Assembly: GCF_002891535.1 (NCBI RefSeq)
Contig: NZ_PDZR01000032.1
Location: 1-38,921 of the forward strand
Length of the DNA stretch: 38,921 nt
Origin: Methylocella silvestris
GTDB lineage: Bacteria > Pseudomonadota > Alphaproteobacteria > Rhizobiales > Beijerinckiaceae
Direction of reading: 5' to 3'
How positions within the stretch are numbered: the first letter of the stretch is position 1; each line of letters starts with the position of its first letter. The notes below the pieces were generated by a model. The model did no database searches and was not told where the DNA came from. It saw only the letters and a list, made by a program, of their open reading frames with translations. A program made the position numbers and the translations under genes. Below are positions 3,384-20,095 of the stretch, one piece after another.

Positions 3384-3870
3384 CGCTCTTCGAAGAGCAT
3401 TGCGATCCACTGTTGTGGCCATGGACTGCGGCACGAAGTTTCGTCGATCCGTGATGTGTTTGGCGGCGCGCCGATGTTGCGCCTGGCGATGATAGCGCCG
3501 CGCTGGAAGCGGCGAATCCGGCGGCGCGCCCGATCAGATCAATCGATCAAAGCCTATGTCCCGTTCGCGCGCTCCGCCAACGCCGTCGCGCGCCTGGCGA
3601 AGCCCTGCCGGCCGCAGGCAAGGCCTCATACTTTCGTATTCTCGACTTCGCCTCGAAAGCGCGCCAACGTCGCCAAGTGGATGTTCTGCAACAGAGCGTC
3701 CACGACCTCGTGGTTCATTCCACCTGATGTTCGGGGACAGCTATTCAGCTGTCGCGCTACGAGGATGCTTTTCAGATCCAGATGCGGTTTCGTATCGAAT
3801 TCAGGATCAAACAAAGCCTTGAGGCACCTCCCCGGTCGCGCGATCCGACTGGGCCAGAAGGGAGCATTCC
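3384..3870 (+). other. Intergenic region upstream of the RND operon
   Basis: About 490 bp with no recognisable gene. GCTCTTCGAAGAGC at 3385-3398 is a short perfect palindrome directly after the AEC stop codon. It could be a weak terminator stem but lacks a T-run. The promoter of the RND operon should lie near the right end; AGAAGGGAG just before 3871 is the ribosome binding site of the adaptor gene. Confidence 0.35.
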
Positions 3871-5100
3871 ATGTCCACGGCCAATCCTTCCGCTGGCGGT
3901 CCGCAAAAGGCGGCATCTGGAAGCGCCGGCCGCTGGTCGAAAGCAAAAGCGTTGCTGGCCGTTGCGGGATTTGGCGGCGCGTTCCTTGGGCTCGCGGCCG
4001 CCGTGCATTTTGCTATTGCGCCGAAGCCCCGGGCGGCGGCGGCCCCAGCGCCGGTCCCGGTCGTCACCGCCCTTGTGCAGCGGCAGGACGCGCCCGTCAT
4101 CCTGACCGGCCTTGGCATTGTCCAAGCTTTCAACACGGCGACGATCCGCAGCCAGGTCACGGGCGTGCTGGAGAGCGTCGGCTTTATCGAGGGCCAATCG
4201 GTCAAACGCGGCGATGTGCTGGCGCAGATCGATCCGCGCCTGTTTCAGGCCCGGCTCGATCAGGCCGAGGCGCAGCTTGGCCGCGATCAGGCGCAGCTTG
4301 CCAATACGCAAACGAATCTCGGGCGCGACGAACCGCTGCTGCAGCGTGGCTTTGCCACCAATCAGGCGGTCACGGATCTGTCGGCCAGGGTCAGCCAGCT
4401 GCAAAGCACGCTGAAAGCGGATCAGGCGGCGGTCGAGGCGGCCGGGATCGAACTCGATTACGCCACCCTGCGCGCGCCCTTCGATGGCGTGACAGGCGTG
4501 CGGATGATCGATATCGGCAATGTCATTCATCCGGCGGACCCGACTGGAATCGTGACGCTGACGCAAGTCCAGCCGATCAGCGTGCTGTTTACGCTGCCTG
4601 TTGAAGATATTCCCGCGGTCCAGACCGCGCTTGCCCGCGGGCCGGTGACCGCGACCGTTTACAATCAGAGCGGTACAAAGCGGCTTGATGCCGGAACATT
4701 GCTGCTCATCAACAATGTCGCCGCGCCCAACTCCGGCACGGTCCAAATGAAGGCGACTTTTCCAAACGCGCAGCGGCAGCTCTGGCCCGGCGCCTTCGTC
4801 AACGCCGAGATCACGACATCGATTGTGAAGGACGCGCTGACGATCCCGACCGACGCCATCCAGCAGAATGACCAGGGCGCGTTCGTCTATGTCGTCGGCC
4901 CGGATCGCAAGGTCTCGATCCAGCCCGTCGAACTCGGCCAGCGGGTGCGCGGCGTCGCGCTGATCACGAAGGGACTTTCCGCCGGCCAGAGCGTCGTGGT
5001 TCAGGGCCAGTATCGGCTGCTGCCTGGAGCCGAGGTCACGCCATCGGCGCCGGGAGAGGTTCAAAACGCCTCGACGGCGAGCGCTGGAATGCTGCCATGA
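3871..5100 (+). CDS. RND efflux periplasmic adaptor (MdtA/AcrA type)
   Basis: A 409-residue membrane-fusion protein that links an inner-membrane RND pump to an outer-membrane channel. One N-terminal membrane anchor (about residues 27-50, LLAVAGFGGAFLGLAAAVHF) is followed by the first lipoyl half (IRSQVTGVLESVGFIEGQSVKRGDVLAQID), an alpha-helical hairpin rich in Gln and Ala, the second lipoyl half (YATLRAPFDGVTGVRMID), and beta-barrel and membrane-proximal domains ending in SAGQSVVVQGQYRLLPGAEV. This is the complete MdtA-like layout. GAAGGGAG precedes the ATG. The stop overlaps the start of the permease by four bases (ATGA), which indicates translational coupling. No outer-membrane factor gene is nearby, so a TolC-type partner must be encoded elsewhere. 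Confidence 0.92.
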   Translation: MSTANPSAGGPQKAASGSAGRWSKAKALLAVAGFGGAFLGLAAAVHFAIAPKPRAAAAPAPVPVVTALVQRQDAPVILTGLGIVQAFNTATIRSQVTGVLESVGFIEGQSVKRGDVLAQIDPRLFQARLDQAEAQLGRDQAQLANTQTNLGRDEPLLQRGFATNQAVTDLSARVSQLQSTLKADQAAVEAAGIELDYATLRAPFDGVTGVRMIDIGNVIHPADPTGIVTLTQVQPISVLFTLPVEDIPAVQTALARGPVTATVYNQSGTKRLDAGTLLLINNVAAPNSGTVQMKATFPNAQRQLWPGAFVNAEITTSIVKDALTIPTDAIQQNDQGAFVYVVGPDRKVSIQPVELGQRVRGVALITKGLSAGQSVVVQGQYRLLPGAEVTPSAPGEVQNASTASAGMLP

Positions 5101-8100
5101 ATCTTTCCTCCGGCTTCATCAGACGTCCAATTGCGACCACGCTCCTGATGGTCGCCATCGTCGCCCTCGGCGCAATCGGCTATGTCCTGCTGCCGGTTGC
5201 GGCGCTCCCGAATATCGACTCTCCGACGATTCAGGTCACCGCCCAATTGCCCGGCGCGGACCCCGGCACGATGGCGTCCTCGGTCGCGACCCAGCTCGAG
5301 CGGCAGTTCGGCCAGATTGCCGGCGTCAGCCAGATGACCTCAAGCAGCGGCGCCGGCCTGACGCAGGTGACGCTTCAATTCGATCGCAGCCGCAGCATCG
5401 ACGCCGCAGCGACCGACGTACAGGCGGCCATTTCGGCGACGCAGGGGCTGCTGCCCGCGACGCTTCTCAGCACGCCGACCTATCGCAAGATCAATCCCGC
5501 CGATACGCCGATCCTGCTGATCGCACTGACCTCTGACGTCCTGCCGATCATGACCGTCAGCGACTACGCCAATTCCATTCTGGCGCAAAAACTGTCGCAA
5601 GTCCCCGGGGTGGGTCTTGTCGGCGTCGGCGGCCTCGTCAATCCGGCGATCCGCATTCAGGTCAATCCGGCCCAGCTCGCCGCGGCCAATCTCGATTTCG
5701 AGTCCGTCCGGACGGCGCTTGCCGCCGTCACCGTGGACCAGGCCAAGGGCCAGCTTTACGGCGGCCAGCAGGCGGTGGCGCTACAGACCAACGACCAGCT
5801 GACCACAGCGGAAGGTTTCGCCGACACGATTGTGGCCTACCGCGATGGCGCGCCGATCCGCGTGCGCGACATCGGGCGCGCGATCAAGGCGCCGCAGGAC
5901 ACGACGCTGGCTGGCTGGCTGAACGAAAAGCCCGCCGTTCTGCTCGCCGTGCAGCGCGAGCCCGGCGCCAATGTCATGGCGACCGTCGAGGCGATCAAGA
6001 AAAGCCTGCCGCGGCTGCAGGCTTCGCTGCCGCCCTCGATCGACGTGAAAATCGTCTCCGACCGCACACAGACCATCGCGGCGAGCATCAACGACGTTCG
6101 CTTCACGCTTTTGCTTACCATCGGCCTTGTGGTCATGGTCATTGCGGTGTTTTTGCGCAGGCTCTGGGCGACCGTCATTCCCGCAATTTCTGTTCCTATC
6201 TCCATCGTCGGCACATTTGCTGTGATGTATGTGCTGGGCTTCAGCCTCGACAATCTCTCGCTCATGGCGCTCACCATCGCCGTCGGCTTCGTCGTCGACG
6301 ACGCCATCGTGATGGTCGAGAACATCGTGCGCCACATCGAGGGGGGCGCCTCGCCGATGCAGGCGGCCCTCGACGGCGCCGGCGAGATCGGCTTCACGAT
6401 CCTGTCGATCTCGATCTCGCTTGTGGCGGTGTTCATTCCGCTATTTTTGATGGGCGGCGTCGTCGGCCTGCTGTTTCGCGAATTTGCGGTGACGGTCGCC
6501 GTGTCGATCCTTGTGTCGGTGGCCGTTTCTCTGACGCTGACGCCCATGCTCTGCGCAAGCCTCCTGCCGGCCGCCGCTGCGGCAAAAGAAAATTGGGCGT
6601 CGCGCGGACTTGAACATTTCTTCGTCTGGCTGAATGCGGTCTACGATCGCGCCCTTGTGGTCGCCTTACGCCATCGTCGCGTCACCCTCGCTGTGATGCT
6701 TGCAACGGTGGCTGCTACAGTGGCGCTGTTCATTGTCATCCCGAAAGGCTTCTTCCCGCAACAGGACACGGGGTTGATCATTGGCGTCAGCGAAGGCGCG
6801 CAGGATGTCTCGCCCGATGGCATGAAGCAGAGGCTGAAAGCCATTCTGGAGATTGCCGCCAGCGATTCCGCCGTGGCCTCGGCCGTCGGCTACATCGGGC
6901 CGGGCGGGCCGACCGTGACCGAGAATGACGGACGCGTCTTCATCACCCTGAAGCCCAAAGGCGAACGGGACGTGACAGCCGACCAGATCATTGCCCGGCT
7001 AAGCGTGGCGATGCAGCAGGTTCAGGGCATGGTTCTCTACATGCAGGCGGCTCAGGACATCAACATCGGCGGACGTATTTCAAAGACGCAATACCAGTAC
7101 ACGCTGACCGGCGTCGACAGCGACGAGCTGACCCGCTACGCGCCGCTGCTCTTTGAAAGATTGAAGACGCTTCCCGAACTGGCGTCGGTCGCGACCGATC
7201 AGCAATCCGCTGGCCGGACGCTGAATGTCGAGATAGACCGCACCGCGGCCGCGCGCCTTGGCATCGATCCGGCGACGGTGGATTCGACGCTCTACGACGC
7301 TTTCGGCCAGCGGCATGTGGCGCGCATTTATACCGCGCTGAACCAATATTATGTCATTCTTGAAGTCGATCCGCGCTATCAGCTCGGGCCAAACGCGCTG
7401 GAGCGAATCTACATCCGCACGCAGAATAATACGATGACGCCGCTGCGCCAGATCGCGCGCCTGACCTCAGGCGTCGCGCCGATCGCCATCAATCATCAAA
7501 ATCAGTTCCCTTCAGTGACGCTCAGCTTCAACCTGGCGCCGGGCGCGACGATCGGCGCTGCGGTTGCGGCGGTTGAGGCGGCAAACGCCGCGCTTCACAT
7601 GCCCCGCTCGATTGCGGCCGGCTTTTCCGGCAATGCGCAAGCGTTCCAGAACTCGCTGGGAAGCACGCCGCCGCTGATCCTCGCTGCGCTCTTTGCCGTC
7701 TATATCATCCTTGGCATGCTCTATGAGAGCGCTATCCATCCCCTGACTATCCTTTCGACCTTGCCGTCGGCTGGCCTTGGCGCGCTCGCCACATTGGCGC
7801 TGGTCGGCCGCCCGCTCGACGTCATCGGCATCATCGGCATCATGCTTCTCATCGGCATTGTGAAAAAGAACGGCATCATGCTGGTTGATGTCGCGCTCGA
7901 AGCGCAGCGCACGCGCGGCCTTTCCGCCGAAGACGCCGCCCATGAGGCCGCCCGCCTGCGCTTCCGGCCGATCCTGATGACGACCATGTGCGCGCTTTTA
8001 GGCGGCATCCCGCTGATGCTCGGGACGGGCACAGGCTCCGAAATCCGCCAGCCGCTTGGCTATGCCATCGTCGGCGGGCTTCTCGTGTCACAGGCTCTGA

Positions 8101-8270
8101 CGCTCTTCACGACGCCTGTCGTCTACATCTACATGGACAAGCTCGGCGCGGCGCTGAGTCGTGGGAGGAAGGGCCGCGCTGACCCCGCGGCCGCAAGCAA
8201 ACAAGACCCCAGGCCGCCCACAGCTTCGTCGCGAGCGGCGAATGCCGCGCCCGGAGGACAAGCCAGTTGA
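5097..8270 (+). CDS. RND multidrug efflux permease (HAE1 family, MdtB/MdtC-like)
   Basis: A 1057-residue inner-membrane proton/drug antiporter of normal length for the HAE1 family. It starts with the typical [15 protein letters not shown] first helix. The TM4 proton-relay pair is present in [15 protein letters not shown], and the TM10 lysine is kept in [14 protein letters not shown], so the relay looks intact. Two large periplasmic loops follow TM1 and TM7. The hydrophilic C-terminal tail of about 40 residues is cytoplasmic. It is coupled to the upstream adaptor by an ATGA overlap, and together they form two parts of a tripartite pump. The substrate range is not predictable; sequence flavour ([33 protein letters not shown]) is closest to the MdtBC/MexF-like group. 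Confidence 0.93.
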
Positions 8271-8405: not shown

Positions 8406-9389
8406 TCAGCGCGCAGACTCCATCACGGGCGCGCTAGCAGTGCCAGCGTCAGGACGGGGCTGCGCAAGCACATGCACCGTCGCGGTCATGCCGGCTGCAA
8501 GATGCACGCCCTTCGGCGCCGCGTCGAAGGTGATGCGGACCGGAATGCGCTGGGCAAGACGCACCCAGGTGAACACGGGATTGACCGCCGGCAGACCGGC
8601 GACGCCCGGCGTGGCGTTCGGATCCATGATGCCGCGGGCGAGGCTCTCGACACGCCCCTCAATGGGTTGATCGGGAAAGCCCATGAGGATGATTTCGGCC
8701 GGATCACCGGGGCGGATGCGCGCAATCTGGGTCTCCTCGAAATAGCCCGAGACCCAGTAGCTGTCTGAATCGACGAGCGTCATCGCCGCCTGTCCGATCG
8801 TCGCATAGGTTCCGGTCTGCAGGAGCAGATTGGTCACATAGCCATTGACGGGCGAACGAACCTCGACGCGGTTCAGATTTAGCCTCGCATTGTCGAGATC
8901 GACCATCGCGCTGTCATAGGCGGCCTTGGCGATCTCTGCTTCGCTCTCGAATGTCTGGCGGACCTCTGGACTGACGGCGGCGTCGCTGAGCTCATCGCGC
9001 CGCGCCGCCTCAGCCTGACTGTTGACCATCTGGGCCTGCGCCCGAGCAAGCGCTGTCTCGGCGCGGCGCGCCGCGATGAGATAGTCGCGATCATCGATGC
9101 GAAACAGCAGATCGCCTTTTTTGATCCTCTGGTTATCGCCGACGAGCACCGCCGTGACCTGGCCAGATACCTGTGGCGCCACTTGCGCCGTATAGACGCG
9201 TACGGTCGCGTCGCGCGTCCATGGCGTATCGAAATAATAGCGCCAGGCGAGCCAGCCCAGCACGACTGCCCCAGCCAGCACGACAAAAACAGTGAACAGG
9301 CCAAAGGCGGAGGGGGTGGCCGGGACGGGCGACGCCGCGCTTTGAGCGCTTGTCGGCGTAGCGATGTTTTTTGGCGGGATTTCCGACAT
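8406..9389 (-). CDS. HlyD-family adaptor, AaeA-like (aromatic acid efflux)
   Basis: A 327-residue single-anchor periplasmic adaptor. A membrane segment (about residues 28-50, FGLFTVFVVLAGAVVLGWLAW) is followed by a lipoyl motif (APQVSGQVTAVLVGDNQRIKKGDLLFRID), a helical hairpin, the second lipoyl half (VEVRSPVNGYVTNLLLQTGTY) and a beta-barrel region. The order and the phrase GYFEETQIARIRPGDPAEI match the AaeA/EmrA-like branch that works with FUSC-type pumps. The ATG at 9389 gives the usual short cytoplasmic tail; the longer open frame upstream overlaps the DUF1656 gene and is not credible. It is the third gene of a tight minus-strand operon, FUSC-DUF1656-adaptor, with 2 bp between DUF1656 and this gene. 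Confidence 0.88.
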   Translation of the reverse strand: MSEIPPKNIATPTSAQSAASPVPATPSAFGLFTVFVVLAGAVVLGWLAWRYYFDTPWTRDATVRVYTAQVAPQVSGQVTAVLVGDNQRIKKGDLLFRIDDRDYLIAARRAETALARAQAQMVNSQAEAARRDELSDAAVSPEVRQTFESEAEIAKAAYDSAMVDLDNARLNLNRVEVRSPVNGYVTNLLLQTGTYATIGQAAMTLVDSDSYWVSGYFEETQIARIRPGDPAEIILMGFPDQPIEGRVESLARGIMDPNATPGVAGLPAVNPVFTWVRLAQRIPVRITFDAAPKGVHLAAGMTATVHVLAQPRPDAGTASAPVMESAR

Positions 9390-9391
9390 GG

Positions 9392-9604
9392 CTAGATGCG
9401 CCCAAGCAGGAGAACGAGCCCCGACAGGAGCCCTATGAACACGGCAAGCTCCATCGCCGGCGAGCGCGCCAGAAGAGCTACGCCGCGCGTGCGATGAACA
9501 ATGGCAAGCGCCCCGAGCGTGGCGACAAAGGCGATCGGCAGACAAAGCGCAAAGGGGGATATGAACACGCCCATCACGTCGATCTCGCGCAGCGGAAATA
9601 TCAT
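9392..9604 (-). CDS. DUF1656 small membrane protein, AaeX-like
   Basis: A 70-residue protein with two hydrophobic segments (about residues 10-35 and 48-68) and the typical DUF1656 opening REIDVMGVFISPFA. AaeX-type proteins almost always sit between a FUSC pump and a HlyD adaptor, as here; their exact function is unknown but they are taken as accessory parts of hydroxybenzoate-type efflux systems. The start codon overlaps the FUSC stop by four bases (ATGA), so translation is probably coupled. Confidence 0.85.
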   Translation of the reverse strand: MIFPLREIDVMGVFISPFALCLPIAFVATLGALAIVHRTRGVALLARSPAMELAVFIGLLSGLVLLLGRI

Positions 9605-10659
9605 CGGGCGGCCCTCCAGATGCGCTCGGGGAGCACGATGCGATAGGCCGCCATGCCGAAAGCGATGCCGGCGAAGATCGCGGCGGCCTCGTTGAGCGAG
9701 GCGGCGAGGTCATATTGCATCGGATTGGCGGGATCGACCGCAAGCAGGAAGGACAGATTATAGCCGACCGCCGTCCCGGCCGTACGCTGATCGGTCATCC
9801 CGACCGCGCCAATAAAGAGGAAGGGAGCGAGGATCGCCGCGAGCAGCCCGAACGAAGAGGGCGCGTTGAGCAACGCATATTTGACGAAGATGCCGAGGAA
9901 CTGTCCCAGGATGACGCCCCAGAGATAGTCCGCCGAGCGACGGTCGGGATCCGGCAATGTGCCAAGGAAAAGCGCGACGACGCCGGCAAAAACCGCAAAA
10001 AGCCCGCCTGAAGGCCAGGCGGTGGCCATCCATATGAACCAGGCGAGGCCCACCGCCACAAAGACGCGTACGGTGTTGCCTGCAACCTGCGCCAGATTCG
10101 GGGCTGGGGCAGGCCTGGCTGCGGTTGCAGGTCGAGGGCCCTGCAGCATCTCGGCGAAGGCGCTCGCAACATAGGCGCAGGCGAGACCAAGTAGAATATC
10201 GGCGGCGCGCGCGACGGAGATGTTGAAGATCGTTAGCGGACTGGCCTCGCTCAGCACCACCACAAGGCCGGTGGTGAGCCCGGATAGAGCAGCGCCATAG
10301 GCGGCGAAGCCAGGAAGGCGGCCGCCCACATAGGCGTTGAACGCGAACCATGCCGCGAGGAAAAGACCCATGGCGATCGCGCTCTGGGAGAAGATCGCGA
10401 CGCCGGCCAGGCCTGCCGCCAGGCCGAGGATGGTGCCGCCTGCCCGCCACATTCCCTTTGTCGCGACGAGACCGCGCGTCGGCAAGGCGAGCGCCATCGC
10501 GGTCCAGGCTGCCCAGCGCGGCGTGTCGAACTGCAGCCACATGCCAAGCCAGAGCGCCGCCAGAGCCGCCGCCGTCGTGCGCAGACCAAAAAGCGCGCCC
10601 GAGGCGCCAAATTGCGCCGCTAATGTCGGCTTTTCAGCGATGTTCGATCCTCTCGTCAA
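9601..10659 (-). CDS. FUSC-family efflux protein (AaeB-like, single module)
   Basis: A 352-residue polytopic inner-membrane protein of the fusaric acid resistance / aromatic acid exporter family. The first half begins LFGLRTTAAALAALWLGMWLQFDTPRWAAWTAM, the characteristic FUSC opening, and a second hydrophobic cluster runs from about residue 200 (FVAVGLAWFIWMATAWPSG) to 345. Classical AaeB proteins are about 650 residues with long cytoplasmic domains; this one is about half that length. The apparent start is TTG at 10659, supported by AGAGGA eight bases upstream; the next in-frame ATG would remove the first helix. It heads the operon with DUF1656 and the AaeA-like adaptor, so the set probably exports aromatic acids or similar weak acids. 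The substrate is an inference from the family. Confidence 0.85.
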   Translation of the reverse strand: MTRGSNIAEKPTLAAQFGASGALFGLRTTAAALAALWLGMWLQFDTPRWAAWTAMALALPTRGLVATKGMWRAGGTILGLAAGLAGVAIFSQSAIAMGLFLAAWFAFNAYVGGRLPGFAAYGAALSGLTTGLVVVLSEASPLTIFNISVARAADILLGLACAYVASAFAEMLQGPRPATAARPAPAPNLAQVAGNTVRVFVAVGLAWFIWMATAWPSGGLFAVFAGVVALFLGTLPDPDRRSADYLWGVILGQFLGIFVKYALLNAPSSFGLLAAILAPFLFIGAVGMTDQRTAGTAVGYNLSFLLAVDPANPMQYDLAASLNEAAAIFAGIAFGMAAYRIVLPERIWRAAR

Positions 10660-12535: not shown

Positions 12536-13264
12536 CTACTGACGACATTGCAGCGTGAACCCCGCGCCGCGCACGCTGTGAATGAGCGGCGTCTCGCCAT
12601 CGGCGTCGATTTTGCGGCGCAGCTTTCCGATGTGCACGTCGATGAGATTGGTGTTGGGAAGCGAACGGTAACCCCAGACGTCCTCGAGCAGCATGGCGCG
12701 CGTGAGGACCTGACCGACGTGACGCATCATATATTCAAGCAGCTTGAATTCGGCCGGCAGAAGCGCGATAGCCCGCGCGCCCCGCTGCGCCATGCGTGTA
12801 ATTCGATCGAGTGAGAGCGGCCCGACAACGAGCGCCCTCTCCTGCACGCTCTGGCTCCGGCGCAGCAACGCTTCGACGCGGGCGGCGAGTTCTCCGAGGG
12901 CGAAAGGCTTCGTCATATAATCATCGCCGCCCGCCTTGAGCGCGCGAATGCGCTCGTCGACCGCAGTGAGCCCGCTCACGAAAAGGACAGGCAGATGGGC
13001 GTCGTCTCGCCGCAGCCGTTCGATTATCGAGACGCTATCGACGCCTGCCAACATGCGATCCGCGATAATCAACATCGGGTCCAGCGCGCGCGCCGCCTCA
13101 AACCCGTCCTCGGCTGTGCTGACAGAGACGGCCTCATAACCGTTCGCCCGGAGTTCGTCCTCAATAGCCTTGGCGACAAAGGATTCGTCCTCGACGATCA
13201 GTATGGGCCTTTGCCGGCGCGCCGGATTTTCTGAGGGCGCTTCAGCCTTGATTTCCGTCTCCAT
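12536..13264 (-). CDS. OmpR/PhoB-family response regulator
   Basis: A 242-residue DNA-binding response regulator. The receiver domain starts at about residue 20 (PILIVEDESFVAKAIEDEL). The phospho-acceptor is Asp69 in MLIIADRMLAG, the conserved Thr/Ser is in VLFVSGLT, and the Lys is in DDYMTKPFALGEL. A winged-helix Trans_Reg_C domain fills the C-terminus (LSLDRITRMAQRGARAI, LTRAMLLEDVWGYRSLPNTN, VDVHIGKLRRKID-like region, HSVRGAGFTL). The ATG at 13264 is chosen; a GTG 12 bases upstream is possible. It lies downstream of the RND fusion gene on the same strand (gap about 235 bp). The HAMP/HisKA kinase that reads outward from the other side of the fusion gene is its likely partner. It probably regulates the pump genes. 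Confidence 0.9.
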   Translation of the reverse strand: METEIKAEAPSENPARRQRPILIVEDESFVAKAIEDELRANGYEAVSVSTAEDGFEAARALDPMLIIADRMLAGVDSVSIIERLRRDDAHLPVLFVSGLTAVDERIRALKAGGDDYMTKPFALGELAARVEALLRRSQSVQERALVVGPLSLDRITRMAQRGARAIALLPAEFKLLEYMMRHVGQVLTRAMLLEDVWGYRSLPNTNLIDVHIGKLRRKIDADGETPLIHSVRGAGFTLQCRQ

Positions 13265-13499
13265 GCCTCTTTCCACTTTCTCTCAACTCTCCGCATGAGC
13301 GAGACCCGCGTTGTCGAGATCGGCCTTCTTGCCGCCGCTAAGATTGCCAGCCGTGGTTAGGCGCCCGATTTCACGCATCGCCGCACATTCACTGATCCGT
13401 CACATTGGGCCGATTTGAGGCCCGCTGAAGTAAAAATCGCTTGAGCGAGGCTGTGCGAAGCGCCGCGCCGATGGCTCCTCGAGGCGCCGTCCTTGCCGT

Positions 13500-16400
13500 T
13501 CATAATCTCCCCTCACGCACCAAAGAGTCGGACGGGGCGATCTTCAAGCTGTTCGCGTCAGGCCGCGCGGGAGACGCATCGGCAGTTTCTACAGGGCGAA
13601 CAAGGTCGCCCGCGACGAGCGTCTCCTGCGGACTGTCGATGATCCGGTCGGAAGGGCCAATTCCCGATCTCACCTCGACGTCTTCGCCGAGATTGCGGCC
13701 AAGTTGCACCGGCTTGATCACGACCTTTTCATCTGGTCCGGCGGTGGCGACGCTCATTCCGTGCGGGCCGAAGATGAGCGCCGTCGCCGGCACGCGCAGG
13801 GCGCGGGGATCGCCCGGCAGATGAAAATGAGCCTCGACGAAGGCGCCCGGCCAAAGCTTGCCGTCAGGGTTTGGCGCTTCAAGCTCGACAAGCGCGGTGC
13901 GGGAGCTTTTCGTGATTGCGTCCGAGGTTGAAACGAGGCGCGCCTCGAATGTTTGCTGCCGCCCCGGCAGGTCGAGGGTCGCTTTAAGCCCCGCCTCCAT
14001 GACGCCGATATAGGCCTGCGGCACTTTGACATAGATGCGCATCGCATGGATGTCCGAGACCTTGAACAAGGGCTGGCCGGATTTCTGGCCGGAGTCGACA
14101 AGATCGCCTATCTCGACAGCGCGCGCCGTCACGACGCCGTCGAACGGCGCCTCGAGCTGCTCGAAGGAGGCCAGCGCCTCGAGCCGCGCGACGTTCGCCT
14201 GCGCGGCTTCGACGGCCGCATTCCTGGCGGCGAGCGCGCCCTGCTTTTCGTCGTCCGCCTGCTTCGACACGATGTTGCGGCCAACGAGGCTGCTCCACCT
14301 TTCGGAAGTGACCTTGGCGAGCCTGGCGTCGGCCTCCGCGCTGACGAGGACGGCGCGCGCCTGAACGAGCTGCTGGTCGACCTCTGGCGAATCGATCGTT
14401 GCGAGGACGTCGCCCTTTTTGACGCGGTCACCGATATCCTTCTTCCAGGAGGTTACGTAACCGCTGGCGCGGGCGTAGATCGAACCCGTGTTGAAGGCGG
14501 CGACGTCGCCCGGCAGCGTCAGCTCGGTCTCCTTTGGACCGCGCGTCGGCGTCACAAGGCGCACGCGGGGGACAGCGAGCTCCTCCGTGCGCGCGGCGAT
14601 TTCCTGCTCGCCTTTCGCCCGCACCATCACGCCTGACACAGCGACCGCCACAATGGCGAGCGCAAAGCCAAGGACCAAAATCCGCAAACGTCTCGAGGAC
14701 GGCGGAGCGACGGCAAAAGACGGCATTGGATCTCCTTCAAGAAGGCGGAACGCGTCCGAGGCTGCGCTCGCGACCATTGTGGCCGAGGAAGAGCGAGGGG
14801 CGCGCAAAAGGGCGAAGAGGACAGGCGCGAACACAAGCGTCGCGCAGGTCGCGAGCATCAGTCCGCCTATGACGGCGCGCCCAAGCGGCATGTTCTGGCC
14901 GGGCTCGATCGCCATCGGCGTCATGCCAATGATCATGGCGAGAGCCGTCATCAGAACCGGGCGAAATCGCGCGGCTCCGGCCGCAAGCGCAGCCGCCGCC
15001 GGCTCGACGCCGCGCGCAAGCTCCTCACGGGCGAAGCTGATGACGAGAATGCTGTTGGCGGTGGCGACGCCCATGCACATGATGGCCCCGGTCAGCGCCG
15101 GCGCGGACAGGGGCGTCCGCGTGATGAACAACATCCAGACGATGCCCGCGAGCGCTGCCGGGAGGGAGAGAATGATGACCAGCGAATCGAGCCAGGATTG
15201 GAAGTTGACGACGATCAGCAGGTAGATCAGCAAAATCGAGAAGCCGAGGCCGAACAACAGTTGCCGATAGGCGCTCGTCATCGTGGCTGCCTCGCCGCGG
15301 ATCACGACGGTTGCGCCCTTTGGCGCCTCGGCGCGGGTTTCCGAGACGATCTTTTCGACATCCGCTCTAACGGCGCCGAGATCGCGGCCTTCGGCCGAGG
15401 CGTAAATGTCGATCGTCGGCTGGATATTGTAATGGGTGACGACGCTTGGCGTCGGCTCCGGAGTGATAGTCGCGACGGCGCCGAGGAGTTGCGAGTCGGT
15501 CGGTCCCGAGACAAGCACGTTTTGAAGGCCGGGCAATGTGTCGATCGCATACTGCGGCGTCTGGATCGAAACCGGATAGGAGACGCCGTTCTTGGGGTTA
15601 AGCCAGTAGATGGGCGTGCTCTGACTGCTGCCGGACAGGGTATCCTGCAGGCTGGTCGATGCGTCATGCTCGGTCAGCCCGACGACTCCGGCGAGATCGC
15701 GGTTGAAATCGACCTTAAGCGCCGGCGCCTCGAAGACTTGCTGAACGCGCGCGTCCACCGCGCCGGGCACATGATTGATGCGCGCGAAGAGCTTTTCCGC
15801 ATAGGCCCTGTCGGCTGCGGCGTCGAATCCGGCGATCTGCACGTCGATCGGAGCGGGGGCGCCGAAATTCAGAATCTGCGTCACCATGTCGCCCGGCAGA
15901 AACGCGAAGGACACGCCGGGAAAGGCGTCGCGCAACCGCTGTCGCAAAGCGGTCTGATAGGTCGCAACCATTTCCTCGCCGGGGGCGAGCGTGACCAGTA
16001 TGTCCGCATCGCTCACGCCGATCGTGCCCGAGTTTGCATAGGACAGATTGATGCCGCTGTTCGGCAGGCCGATGTTGTCTACGATGGTCTCAAGCCGGTC
16101 CTTTGGTATCGTTTGGCGGATTTCCTGTTCGACCTCGCTGGCGATGCGCGCGGTTTCCTCGATCCGTGTTCCCGCATGCGCGCGCATATGAATGCGCAGG
16201 ATTCCGGCGTCGACGGCCGGGAAGAACTCCTGGCCGAGAAAAGGAATGAGAAGCAGGGAGACGGCGCAAAAGCACAGGAAGCCGGCGACGAACGCCTTGC
16301 GATTGACGAGCGCCCAGCTTAGCAGCGCGGCGTAGCGCGATTGCACGGCCTCGAAAACATGCTCGAACCGGGCGTGGGCGCGCGCGAACCGCGATTGCGG

Positions 16401-17909
16401 CGCTCCGTCTCCATGCGCGGACGCCGCATGGCTCAGCAGCGCGCGCGCCATCGTCGGCGTCAGCGTGTAGGTGAGGACATAGGAGGCGACCATCGCCGAG
16501 ACGACGGCGAGCGCGAGCGGCCGGAACAGATAGCCGGCGACGCCGCCAAGCGAGAGCAGCGGGACGAAAGCGATGCAGATGCAAAGCAGGGACACCGTAG
16601 CGGGCGGCATGATCTCCCGCGCGCCCTCGACGATGGCCGTCTCGATGTCATCGCCACGATGAAGATGCCGGTTGATGTTTTCGATGGTGACCGTCGCGTC
16701 GTCGACGAGAATGCCGACGGCGAGGGCGAGACCGCCGAGAGTCATCACGTTGATCGTCTGGCCTGTCAGCGACAGGAAGACGAGGGAGCTCAAGATCGCG
16801 AGAGGGATCGAGATGGTGATGATCAGCGTCGACCGCCAGCTGCCGAGAAAGACGAGGATCATGAGGCCGGTGAGGCTCGCCGCGATAACGCCCTCCCTCA
16901 CGACATTCGTCACGGAGGATTTGACGAAGGCGGACTGGTCGTTGACGAGCTTGAGCCGGACGCCTGGAGGAAGCGAGGCTTCAATTGCGGGAAGCGCCTT
17001 CTTGACCCCGTCGATGATGTCGAGGGTGGATGCCGACCCGTTCTTGACGACCGAGATGAGCACGCCCTTCGCGCCGTCCATCTGCACGATATTGGTCTGC
17101 GGCGGCGAGCCGTCGTGAACGAAGGCGACGTCGCGCATGAAGACGACGGCGCCATTTACCACCTTGATCGGAATGTCGTTGAATTCCCGGAGCCGCTTCG
17201 GCGAATCGTTGAGGTCGATCGTATATTCGTAGCGGCCGATCTTCTGGGTTCCAACCGGCGTGATGATGTTTTGCCGCACCAGCGCGTCGACGATGTCCTG
17301 GGCCGAAAGATTATGCGCGCGCAGCGCCTTCTGATCGAGGTCGATCTGCGCCTGCCGCGCCGCGCCGCCATAGGGCGAGGGCATTTGTGCGCCGGGAATG
17401 CTCGCAAGCTGTGGGCGGATGAAATTGGCCGCCAGATCATTCAGCCGCGCCTCCGGCAGGGAATCGCTCGACAACGCGAGCTGAATGATCGGCACGCTCG
17501 AGGCGTTGTAGACGAGGATCTGCGGCGGGTTGATGCCCGCCGGAAGCTGCTTCAGGATCGTCTGCGAAATGGCCGTGACCTGCGCCTGCGCCGCGCTGAC
17601 GTCGACCGTCGGCTGGAAGTAGATTTTCACCAGCCCGTAGGTGACGAAGGATTGCGACTCGATATGCTCGATGTCGTTGACCGTCGTCGACACCGCCCGC
17701 TCATAGCTCGAGATGATGCGGCCGGCCATGTCGTCGGGCGGCAGACCGTTATAGGTCCAGATGACACTGACGACCGGGATGCCGATATTCGGAAAAATAT
17801 CCGTCGGGGTCTTCAATATGGCGAGCGCCCCGTATATCGCGATCAAGATCGCCATCACCACGAACGTCAAAAGACGCGACAGCGCCAGCCTTACAATTCC
17901 GATCATCAT
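13500..17909 (-). CDS. RND efflux permease fused in frame to its periplasmic adaptor
   Basis: One uninterrupted frame of 1469 codons. Residues 1 to about 1040 form a complete 12-helix RND permease (VRLALSRLLTFVVMAILIAIYG first helix region; TM4 pair in AVGILVDDATVTIENI; last helices near PLGRAVIGGLMLATCATLVF). Residues about 1062-1469 form a complete membrane-fusion protein: its own anchor (LRILVLGFALAIVAVAVSGV), lipoyl halves (ARASGYVTSWKKDIGDRVKK; FEQLEAPFDGVVTARAVEIG), a helical hairpin and the C-terminal barrel (SGIGPSDRIIDSPQETLVAG). Normally these are two genes with the adaptor first; here the order is reversed and no stop separates them. AAGGAG five bases before Met1062 could also start a free adaptor. 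The TM10 lysine of HAE1 pumps is replaced (GVATANSILVISFA), which may be typical of this subfamily. An OmpR-type regulator and a divergent kinase flank the gene. Confidence 0.9.
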   Translation of the reverse strand: MMIGIVRLALSRLLTFVVMAILIAIYGALAILKTPTDIFPNIGIPVVSVIWTYNGLPPDDMAGRIISSYERAVSTTVNDIEHIESQSFVTYGLVKIYFQPTVDVSAAQAQVTAISQTILKQLPAGINPPQILVYNASSVPIIQLALSSDSLPEARLNDLAANFIRPQLASIPGAQMPSPYGGAARQAQIDLDQKALRAHNLSAQDIVDALVRQNIITPVGTQKIGRYEYTIDLNDSPKRLREFNDIPIKVVNGAVVFMRDVAFVHDGSPPQTNIVQMDGAKGVLISVVKNGSASTLDIIDGVKKALPAIEASLPPGVRLKLVNDQSAFVKSSVTNVVREGVIAASLTGLMILVFLGSWRSTLIITISIPLAILSSLVFLSLTGQTINVMTLGGLALAVGILVDDATVTIENINRHLHRGDDIETAIVEGAREIMPPATVSLLCICIAFVPLLSLGGVAGYLFRPLALAVVSAMVASYVLTYTLTPTMARALLSHAASAHGDGAPQSRFARAHARFEHVFEAVQSRYAALLSWALVNRKAFVAGFLCFCAVSLLLIPFLGQEFFPAVDAGILRIHMRAHAGTRIEETARIASEVEQEIRQTIPKDRLETIVDNIGLPNSGINLSYANSGTIGVSDADILVTLAPGEEMVATYQTALRQRLRDAFPGVSFAFLPGDMVTQILNFGAPAPIDVQIAGFDAAADRAYAEKLFARINHVPGAVDARVQQVFEAPALKVDFNRDLAGVVGLTEHDASTSLQDTLSGSSQSTPIYWLNPKNGVSYPVSIQTPQYAIDTLPGLQNVLVSGPTDSQLLGAVATITPEPTPSVVTHYNIQPTIDIYASAEGRDLGAVRADVEKIVSETRAEAPKGATVVIRGEAATMTSAYRQLLFGLGFSILLIYLLIVVNFQSWLDSLVIILSLPAALAGIVWMLFITRTPLSAPALTGAIMCMGVATANSILVISFAREELARGVEPAAAALAAGAARFRPVLMTALAMIIGMTPMAIEPGQNMPLGRAVIGGLMLATCATLVFAPVLFALLRAPRSSSATMVASAASDAFRLLEGDPMPSFAVAPPSSRRLRILVLGFALAIVAVAVSGVMVRAKGEQEIAARTEELAVPRVRLVTPTRGPKETELTLPGDVAAFNTGSIYARASGYVTSWKKDIGDRVKKGDVLATIDSPEVDQQLVQARAVLVSAEADARLAKVTSERWSSLVGRNIVSKQADDEKQGALAARNAAVEAAQANVARLEALASFEQLEAPFDGVVTARAVEIGDLVDSGQKSGQPLFKVSDIHAMRIYVKVPQAYIGVMEAGLKATLDLPGRQQTFEARLVSTSDAITKSSRTALVELEAPNPDGKLWPGAFVEAHFHLPGDPRALRVPATALIFGPHGMSVATAGPDEKVVIKPVQLGRNLGEDVEVRSGIGPSDRIIDSPQETLVAGDLVRPVETADASPARPDANSLKIAPSDSLVREGRL
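14724..14737 (-). promoter_or_regulatory. Internal ribosome binding site and ATG at the permease-adaptor junction
   Basis: On the minus strand the fusion frame contains AAGGAG (14737-14732), five bases, then ATG (14726-14724), in frame at codon 1062. The Met begins MPSFAVAPPSSRRLRIL, exactly where a free-standing adaptor would begin, just before its membrane anchor. This is a near-ideal initiation site inside a coding region. It suggests either a former gene boundary that lost its stop codon, or present-day production of both a fusion and a free adaptor. Confidence 0.6.
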
Positions 17910-18730: not shown

Positions 18731-20095
18731 ATGCGCATTTCGGATCTCTTCCGCACGGCGTCCTTCCGGCTCGCGGTGCTCTTTGCCTTTGCCGTCACCG
18801 CCGCCACAACCGTCATCTTCGTCTTCATCTACTGGCATGTCGCGACCTTCGATGTCCGCAGGGTCGGCGTGCGGCTTTCAGACGAGGTCGCCCGCGCTGC
18901 CGCGGAGCCGGATGATCAACTGCGGCGCCAGCTGCGGCGCCGCCTTGCGAGCGATCTGCGAAAGCTCGACTATGTCGGGCTTTTCGACGCGCGGGGAAAG
19001 TCCGTCTTTGGCAATGTCGCTGCGTTGCCGGAGGGGCTTCCGATCGATGGCGCGCCGCATCCGATCGAAGTCGCGCCGCTCGGCGGCGGTTCGGGCACCG
19101 AGCCGGCGCTTCTCGCTGCGCGACAGCGCCCGAACGGGGGCGTCGTCCTGATCGGCCGCAGCCTTTATGAGGTCTACGCCCTGCGGCGGCTCGTCATTCG
19201 CGCCCTCGCGCTCGGCGTCGCGCCGACGATTCTGTCGGCGTTGATCATCGGTCTGATCTTCAGCCTCCGCACGGTGAAACGCCTTCGCAGCATCAACGAG
19301 GCGATCCTTCGGATTATCCAGGGCGATCTGCAGGACAGGCTTCCGGTCGGCCCATGGAAGGATGACGTCGACAACATCGCGAGCGGCGTCAATCTGATGC
19401 TCGACGAAATCGTCCGCCTCCTCGATCAGATCAAAAGCGTCAGCGACAACATTGCGCATGATCTGCGCGCGCCGCTCTCGATCACACGGATGAGCCTCGA
19501 ACGCGGACTCGCGGCGCCGGCTGAAAAGGATCTGCGCGCGGCGGCAAACCGCGCCCTCGCCGAACTCGATCGAGCGCTGACGACCGTGACCGCGTTGTTG
19601 CGGATTTCAGAAATAGAGCTCGGGCGCCGACGGCACGAATTTGTCCCGGTCGATCTCGCCGAGGTCTGCGCGACGGCTTTCGAGCTCTATGAGCCGCTCG
19701 CGGAGGCAAAATCAATCTCCTTCACGCTAGACGCAGGGCGTCCCGTGCCGCTCTCGGGCGATCACGATCTACTCGTTGAAGCCGTCGCCAATCTCATCGA
19801 CAATGCGTTGAAATTCGGCCCGGAGAACGGCGTTGTGTGCGTCTCGGCGTCTGTCGTTTCGGGGCGCGCCGAGGTCGCCGTTTGCGACAATGGGCCGGGC
19901 GTCGATCCAAGCGAGAGCGGCGAAATCTTCAAGCGCTTCTACCGTTCGAAATCGGCCCGCTCCATTCCCGGAACCGGCCTAGGCCTCAACCTCGCGGCGA
20001 CGATCTTCAGCCTGCACGGGCTTGATCTCAAGGTCGCGGACAATCACCCCGGCGCCCGCTTTGTAGCTTCGCAGCGTCTGCCGGCTTCGTCATGA
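18731..20095 (+). CDS. Sensor histidine kinase (HAMP-HisKA-HATPase, OmpR-partner type)
   Basis: A 454-residue inner-membrane kinase. TM1 is at about 12-36 (FRLAVLFAFAVTAATTVIFVF) and a periplasmic sensor of about 110 residues follows. TM2 is at about 157-178 (IRALALGVAPTILSALIIGL), then a HAMP linker. The HisKA phospho-site is His243 in SDNIAHDLRAPLS, with the N-box NLIDNALKFGP, the G1 box VCDNGPGVD and the G2 box GTGLGLNLAATIF. All catalytic boxes are intact. The start at 18731 is chosen because TM1 follows directly and GGAACGG lies upstream; ATG 18626 is the alternative. The kinase is divergent from the RND fusion gene, and the OmpR-type regulator on the far side of that gene is its likely partner. 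The periplasmic stimulus is unknown. Confidence 0.9.
   Translation: MRISDLFRTASFRLAVLFAFAVTAATTVIFVFIYWHVATFDVRRVGVRLSDEVARAAAEPDDQLRRQLRRRLASDLRKLDYVGLFDARGKSVFGNVAALPEGLPIDGAPHPIEVAPLGGGSGTEPALLAARQRPNGGVVLIGRSLYEVYALRRLVIRALALGVAPTILSALIIGLIFSLRTVKRLRSINEAILRIIQGDLQDRLPVGPWKDDVDNIASGVNLMLDEIVRLLDQIKSVSDNIAHDLRAPLSITRMSLERGLAAPAEKDLRAAANRALAELDRALTTVTALLRISEIELGRRRHEFVPVDLAEVCATAFELYEPLAEAKSISFTLDAGRPVPLSGDHDLLVEAVANLIDNALKFGPENGVVCVSASVVSGRAEVAVCDNGPGVDPSESGEIFKRFYRSKSARSIPGTGLGLNLAATIFSLHGLDLKVADNHPGARFVASQRLPASS

Follow-up and report, generated by a model that had tools for sequence, protein, structure and literature searches.

Can an RND permease and its membrane-fusion adaptor be made as one chain, and if so, where would the other adaptors of the assembled pump come from? 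The question is raised by a fused permease-adaptor gene in the stretch of DNA analysed here (the window, 38,921 bases, NZ_PDZR01000032.1 positions 1-38,921), which we compared with other genomes and loci, designated by G and L numbers, G000 being the genome of the window. Positions of the features discussed are collected in Table 1.

Table 1. Features of the fused gene and its flanking regulatory genes, in window coordinates
Feature	Position	Strand	Remarks
Fused RND permease-adaptor gene	13500..17909	-	1469 codons + stop, ATG start
Permease part, residues 1-1040	14790..17909	-	PF00873 at residues 5-1035; twelve hydrophobic regions
Linker, residues 1041-1061	14727..14789	-	first part weakly conserved between G000 and G004
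Adaptor part, residues 1062-1469	13503..14726	-	TIGR01730 above cut-off; PF16576, PF13437
Adaptor anchor, residues 1077-1095, helix 13 of the fusion	14625..14681	-	hydropathy 2.72
Internal Shine-Dalgarno AAGGAG	14737..14732	-	5 nt before ATG of Met1062
In-frame ATG, Met1062, apparent ancestral adaptor start	14726..14724	-	aligns near starts of separate adaptors
OmpR-type response regulator, downstream of fusion	12536..13276	-	same place in G004; 56% identical to L043 regulator
Divergent HAMP sensor histidine kinase	18731..20095	+	start inferred by alignment, mechanical ORF from 18200; same place in G004

A permease and an adaptor in one reading frame

Read and translated from the DNA, the minus-strand frame at 13500-17909 runs through all 1469 residues with zero internal stops, and profiles of known families recognise both of its halves. 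In Pfam, the permease half matches ACR_tran (PF00873) at 657 bits (cut-off 28) over residues 5-1035, spanning positions 1-1020 of the 1021 in the profile, and the adaptor half matches HlyD_D23 at residues 1141-1358 and HlyD_3 at 1252-1352. In NCBIfam the adaptor half scores 208.5 bits with RND_mfp (TIGR01730, cut-off 94.9) over residues 1118-1439, and none of the permease models shown (RND_permease_2, 2A0601, 2A0602 and others) reaches its own cut-off, the best scoring 539.3 against 1250. The open frame and these matches bear out the claim of an earlier note on this DNA that a single frame holds a full-length permease and a full-length adaptor. Both halves are members of known families and the fused form is a new variant; the fusion is demonstrated at the level of sequence, from which we infer both protein products.

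Hydropathy was calculated in overlapping 19-residue windows and the permease regions were grouped by eye, which gave twelve hydrophobic regions before residue 1040, the number of transmembrane segments expected of an RND permease, and a thirteenth at residues 1077-1095. As the C-terminus of an RND permease is cytoplasmic (known for AcrB), the adaptor anchor, as helix 13, would insert into the membrane from the cytoplasm and deliver the adaptor to the periplasm. The topology put forward in the earlier note, with the anchor as a 13th helix, is workable; one further hydrophobic segment follows the twelve.

Conservation in a second genome

The window's genome is a draft of 79 contigs, and a stop codon might have been removed by a sequencing or assembly error. 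However, the same unbroken frame is present in another genome of the genus, G004 (1463 aa, no stops, 92% protein and 89% DNA identity), where one contig of 4,305,430 bases makes up the assembly and holds it; a sequencing artefact is hardly the cause of the fusion because of this second copy, and we assign such an error next to no probability. Of 1469 aligned codon columns, 435 differ between the two genes, including a seven-codon gap. Low dN/dS in both the permease part (dN 0.024, dS 0.369) and the adaptor part (dN 0.075, dS 0.420) indicates that both have been kept under purifying selection since the species split. The linker, compared over the 15 codons before the internal start site described below, has a dN of 0.32, a dS of 0.64 and 69% DNA identity; its lack of stop codons was considered as a sign of selection and dropped, as only 16% of simulated neutral linkers gained a stop. 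Besides its fused copy (L010), G004 holds an unfused paralogue (L024) that is 66% identical to the window's protein, which offers a natural side-by-side comparison.

The earlier note had proposed a search for the same architecture in relatives, and had held that two separate genes in all close relatives would refute the fusion. One close relative, G004, shares the architecture, which is also present in Caulobacter endophyticus 774; the great majority of the other relatives examined have two genes.

Rarity, gene order and phylogeny

Among 163 distinct loci with this kind of permease (44-100% identical, at least 850 bits), 151 carry a separate adaptor, three are fused (those of the window, of G004 and of Caulobacter endophyticus 774) and nine have no adaptor in view, a group that may include some loci cut by contig ends. 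The pump is thus of a known kind, and its fused form is real but rare. An adaptor was counted if it was encoded on the permease's strand, no more than 800 bases downstream; 78 loci were those that best matched the fused protein as a whole, and another 85 came from genome searches, loci of later searches lying outside the count. We removed re-fetched duplicates (L139, L141, L168, L193, L194), six loci with an identical permease (L075, L118, L123, L131, L132, L133), and permease matches below 850 bits or spanning fewer than 900 residues. By this definition the adaptor follows the permease in 154 of the 163 loci; the earlier note was wrong to call this order the reverse of the usual one, since permease-then-adaptor is the rule in the subfamily, and we rejected reversed gene order as a special trait. 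On plasmids, two annotated genes were found wherever both features were named among the 60 records listed of 389 that matched.

Frames open through the adaptor occurred, among the matches listed, only in G000, G004 and G626 (the Caulobacter endophyticus case). The genome searches covered this permease and its close kin rather than distant RND families. In the genus of the window, all 15 of 15 genomes matched at E 0.001, a threshold passed by mostly any RND permease, and the fusions are those among the matches listed; one further single-genome search gave a match in 1 of 1. The genus Caulobacter (24 of 75 genomes with a match, up to seven candidates scored per genome) yielded no further run-through frame among the matches listed, the fusion occurring in one genome only. 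Samples of the family, order, class and phylum, with two candidates scored per genome and sets that overlap, gave matches, each at the threshold of its own search, in 90 of 248, 35 of 397, 23 of 385 and 41 of 398 genomes, respectively, with no further fusion among the matches listed. Several candidates were rejected: the adaptor of L140 (G000:C43) is a separate gene upstream, and G082:C13, G114:C313 and G1278:C66 have a stop after the permease in the DNA, their frames measuring 1131, 1159 and 1085 there versus 1509, 1614 and 1498 in the genome-search output.

A tree of 39 permeases, built by a quick method under a simple model with SH-aLRT support, placed the window and G004 as sisters (support 100) on a long stem branch (0.33) within a clade of five rows (98), which also holds the separate genes of G013 and G014 and the unfused second copy of G004. 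The Caulobacter endophyticus fusion falls in another clade, and two independent fusion events are for this reason the simplest reading of the tree.

Origin of the fusion

Two-gene loci of the same subfamily, such as L011-L018, L039 and L043, have the same domains in the same order as the fusion, and differ from it by a stop or a frame change between the genes; a more distant two-gene pair (46% identical) lies on plasmid p1 of Methylocella tundrae T4 (NZ_CP139088). In L011, L012, L013, L024 and L039 the adaptor is in the frame of the permease, and its ATG is preceded by a TGA and a few codons. As several of the nearest two-gene relatives are already in frame, loss of one stop would suffice to join the genes. 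The same frame is shared in nine of the 17 separate loci whose permease is at least 66% identical, and in 38 of all 151 separate loci; the other eight of the 17, including L014 (71%), are in a different frame, and loss of one stop does not fit there. The genes could instead have been joined by a small insertion or deletion. In the window a TGA in another frame still lies directly against the Shine-Dalgarno sequence.

A probable internal start at the adaptor boundary

The sequence directly 5′ of the adaptor is CTTCTTGAAGGAGATCCAATG. At the Met1062 site the calculated duplex with the 16S end has an energy of -8.1, the strongest of the 85 in-frame ATG, GTG and TTG codons of the window's gene, a ranking made without upstream sequence for the first two codons. 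The energy at the true start is -6.8; the Met1062 site is third of 78 in G004, and the internal site of the Caulobacter endophyticus fusion is weaker (-4.7). For comparison, the median energy was -2.6 at 3809 control ATGs, in frame within the permeases of relatives, and -6.05 at 140 separate adaptor starts, the latter biased by the choice of each start for its best site. An energy of -8.05 was reached at five of the 140 adaptor starts and 135 of the 3809 controls (about 3.5% each), and we therefore dropped Shine-Dalgarno strength alone as the mark of a real start. Given this equal share, the argument is carried more by where the site stands than by how strong it is, and we slightly lowered our confidence in readings that involve an internal start because sites this strong are at least as frequent among internal ATGs as among real starts. 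Ten codons around the internal start are identical between the window's genome and G004; this identity of 30 nt was also dropped as evidence, 79 of 1460 such windows being identical.

The earlier note had pointed out that a covalent one-to-one link would conflict with the usual two adaptors per permease unless free adaptor is made as well. The apparent adaptor-start Shine-Dalgarno and ATG at Met1062, which that note overlooked, offer a concrete source for it, and internal initiation at this codon probably still makes free adaptor.

Proton relay and adaptor hairpin

Aligned to solved permeases, the window permease departs from the full AcrB-type (HAE-1) proton-relay set, which we take to be Asp407, Asp408, Lys940 and Thr978 of AcrB: both Asp and the Thr are present, and the Lys940 column holds Ala (residue 951, 15057-15059, minus strand). 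Of 154 aligned subfamily sequences, 152 have Ala in this column, and practically all keep the first Asp, the Arg and the Thr. Judged by alignment, the missing Lys940 characterises the subfamily rather than the fusion, and proton coupling in the subfamily may differ from that of AcrB.

The adaptor hairpin (after ARAVLV and AAQAN of the window's protein) carries a seven-residue insert in both arms in 14 of 49 sequences, in neither in 35 and in one arm in none. Since the insert is found in both arms or neither, the two arms lengthen or shorten together, each by one heptad.

Neighbourhood and outer-membrane factor

The regulator and kinase that flank the fusion share 56% identity with the pair that adjoins a two-gene relative; two-component genes lie beside the two-gene locus L043, and a kinase beside the pair on Methylocella tundrae T4 plasmid p1. 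The fusion operon is probably under the control of this neighbouring two-component system, as the shared gene context suggests. Scans for regulatory motifs gave counts near expectation, with one promoter-like site against 1.0 expected and six terminator-like sites against 4.9. No outer-membrane factor gene lies beside the fusion or on its contig, and the 12 OEP matches of the genome fall at six places on other contigs; pumps can borrow an outer-membrane factor.

The window also holds a second, ordinary RND pair at 3871-8270 (plus strand), in AcrA-AcrB-like order, with an adaptor at 3871-5100 and a permease at 5097-8270, whose best NCBIfam matches are MdtA and MdtB, both below cut-off. At 8406-10659 (minus strand) an HlyD-type adaptor adjoins a FUSC-family protein of 352 residues, short against the 660 positions of the family model.

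Comparison with known systems

The fusion shares the RND permease family and the RND_mfp adaptor with AcrB-AcrA and MexB-MexA, in which the adaptor gene comes first and the proteins are separate; it differs from both in the Ala at the AcrB Lys940 column and in the lack of an outer-membrane factor gene on its contig. Laboratory AcrB-AcrA fusions, with the permease first in one chain, are reportedly active, as Hayashi and colleagues are said to have described in J Bacteriol in 2016. Those are engineered constructs, whereas the fusion in the window is natural. The literature we searched took in few subscription papers and included the accessible parts of PMC8277102, PMC4446572 and PMC2448597, and within it we found no natural RND permease-adaptor fusion. 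One gene with two nested products is described in type III secretion, where, according to the accessible part of PMC4295842, SctQ/YscQ is made both at full length and as an internally started C-terminal product, both of which are needed for assembly. SctQ/YscQ is an unrelated protein, and its internal product is proven, whereas the products of the fusion are predicted from its sequence.

Proposed products and alternative explanations

In the reading that we favour, an ancestral two-gene RND operon (permease, then adaptor) would have lost its intergenic stop in an ancestor shared by two species of the genus. Translation would then continue beyond the permease, across a short cytoplasmic linker and on through the adaptor, and make a 13-helix protein, presumably stable, functional and regulated by the neighbouring two-component system, whose adaptor domain would reach the periplasm already tethered to the pump; the old ribosome-binding site and ATG of the adaptor, now within the gene, would yield free adaptor. 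In the trimer, three tethered adaptors could recruit three free ones, which would give the usual two adaptors per permease. With modest confidence, we believe on balance that the reading as a whole, from stop loss to a 13-helix permease-adaptor plus free adaptor by internal initiation at Met1062, is correct. That one mRNA sets the stoichiometry of the pump, with three tethered and three free adaptors per trimer, and that this arrangement arose at least twice, is a more tentative proposal, to which we give somewhat less than an even chance.

Alternatively, the 1469-residue fusion might be the only protein made, the pump working with one adaptor per permease and the internal Shine-Dalgarno being an unused relic; the frame is open and both domains are kept, 135 of the 3809 internal ATGs have a site of this strength too, and the engineered one-to-one AcrB-AcrA fusions are reportedly active. 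Nevertheless, the Met1062 site outranks all others of the 85 in the gene, stands at the expected beginning of the adaptor and is identical in both genomes. In the accessible part of PMC4446572, 3:6:3 models are said to dominate a debate that is not fully settled; a combination of tethered and free adaptor would fit 3:6:3, and fusion alone would force 1:1. We consider a fusion-only pump unlikely. Cleavage of the fusion in its cytoplasmic linker, which would release ordinary separate subunits into a working pump, is consistent with a linker that is short and without strong conservation (dN 0.32 and dS 0.64 over 15 codons), and we regard it as distinctly improbable, more so than a pump made of fusion only.

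The fusion could also be a neutral or slightly harmful accident, tolerated thanks to other RND pumps, an explanation compatible with internal initiation and with the rest of the preferred reading. Its rarity (3 of 163 loci), the 15 stretches above the RND permease cut-off in the window's genome and the long stem (0.33) before the two fused sequences all fit such an accident, but dN/dS has been low in both parts since the split, the fusion has been kept in two species and the Asp pair of the permease is intact. An accident seems to us about as unlikely as a fusion-only pump.

Implications for RND pumps

The number and equivalence of adaptors per RND pump are debated, as set out in the accessible part of PMC4446572. 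A natural fusion fixes one adaptor to the permease, and a purified complex would show which of the adaptor positions tolerates a tether and whether the pump still needs free adaptor. The locus in the window is, moreover, a clear example of fused genes that seemingly keep an internal start.
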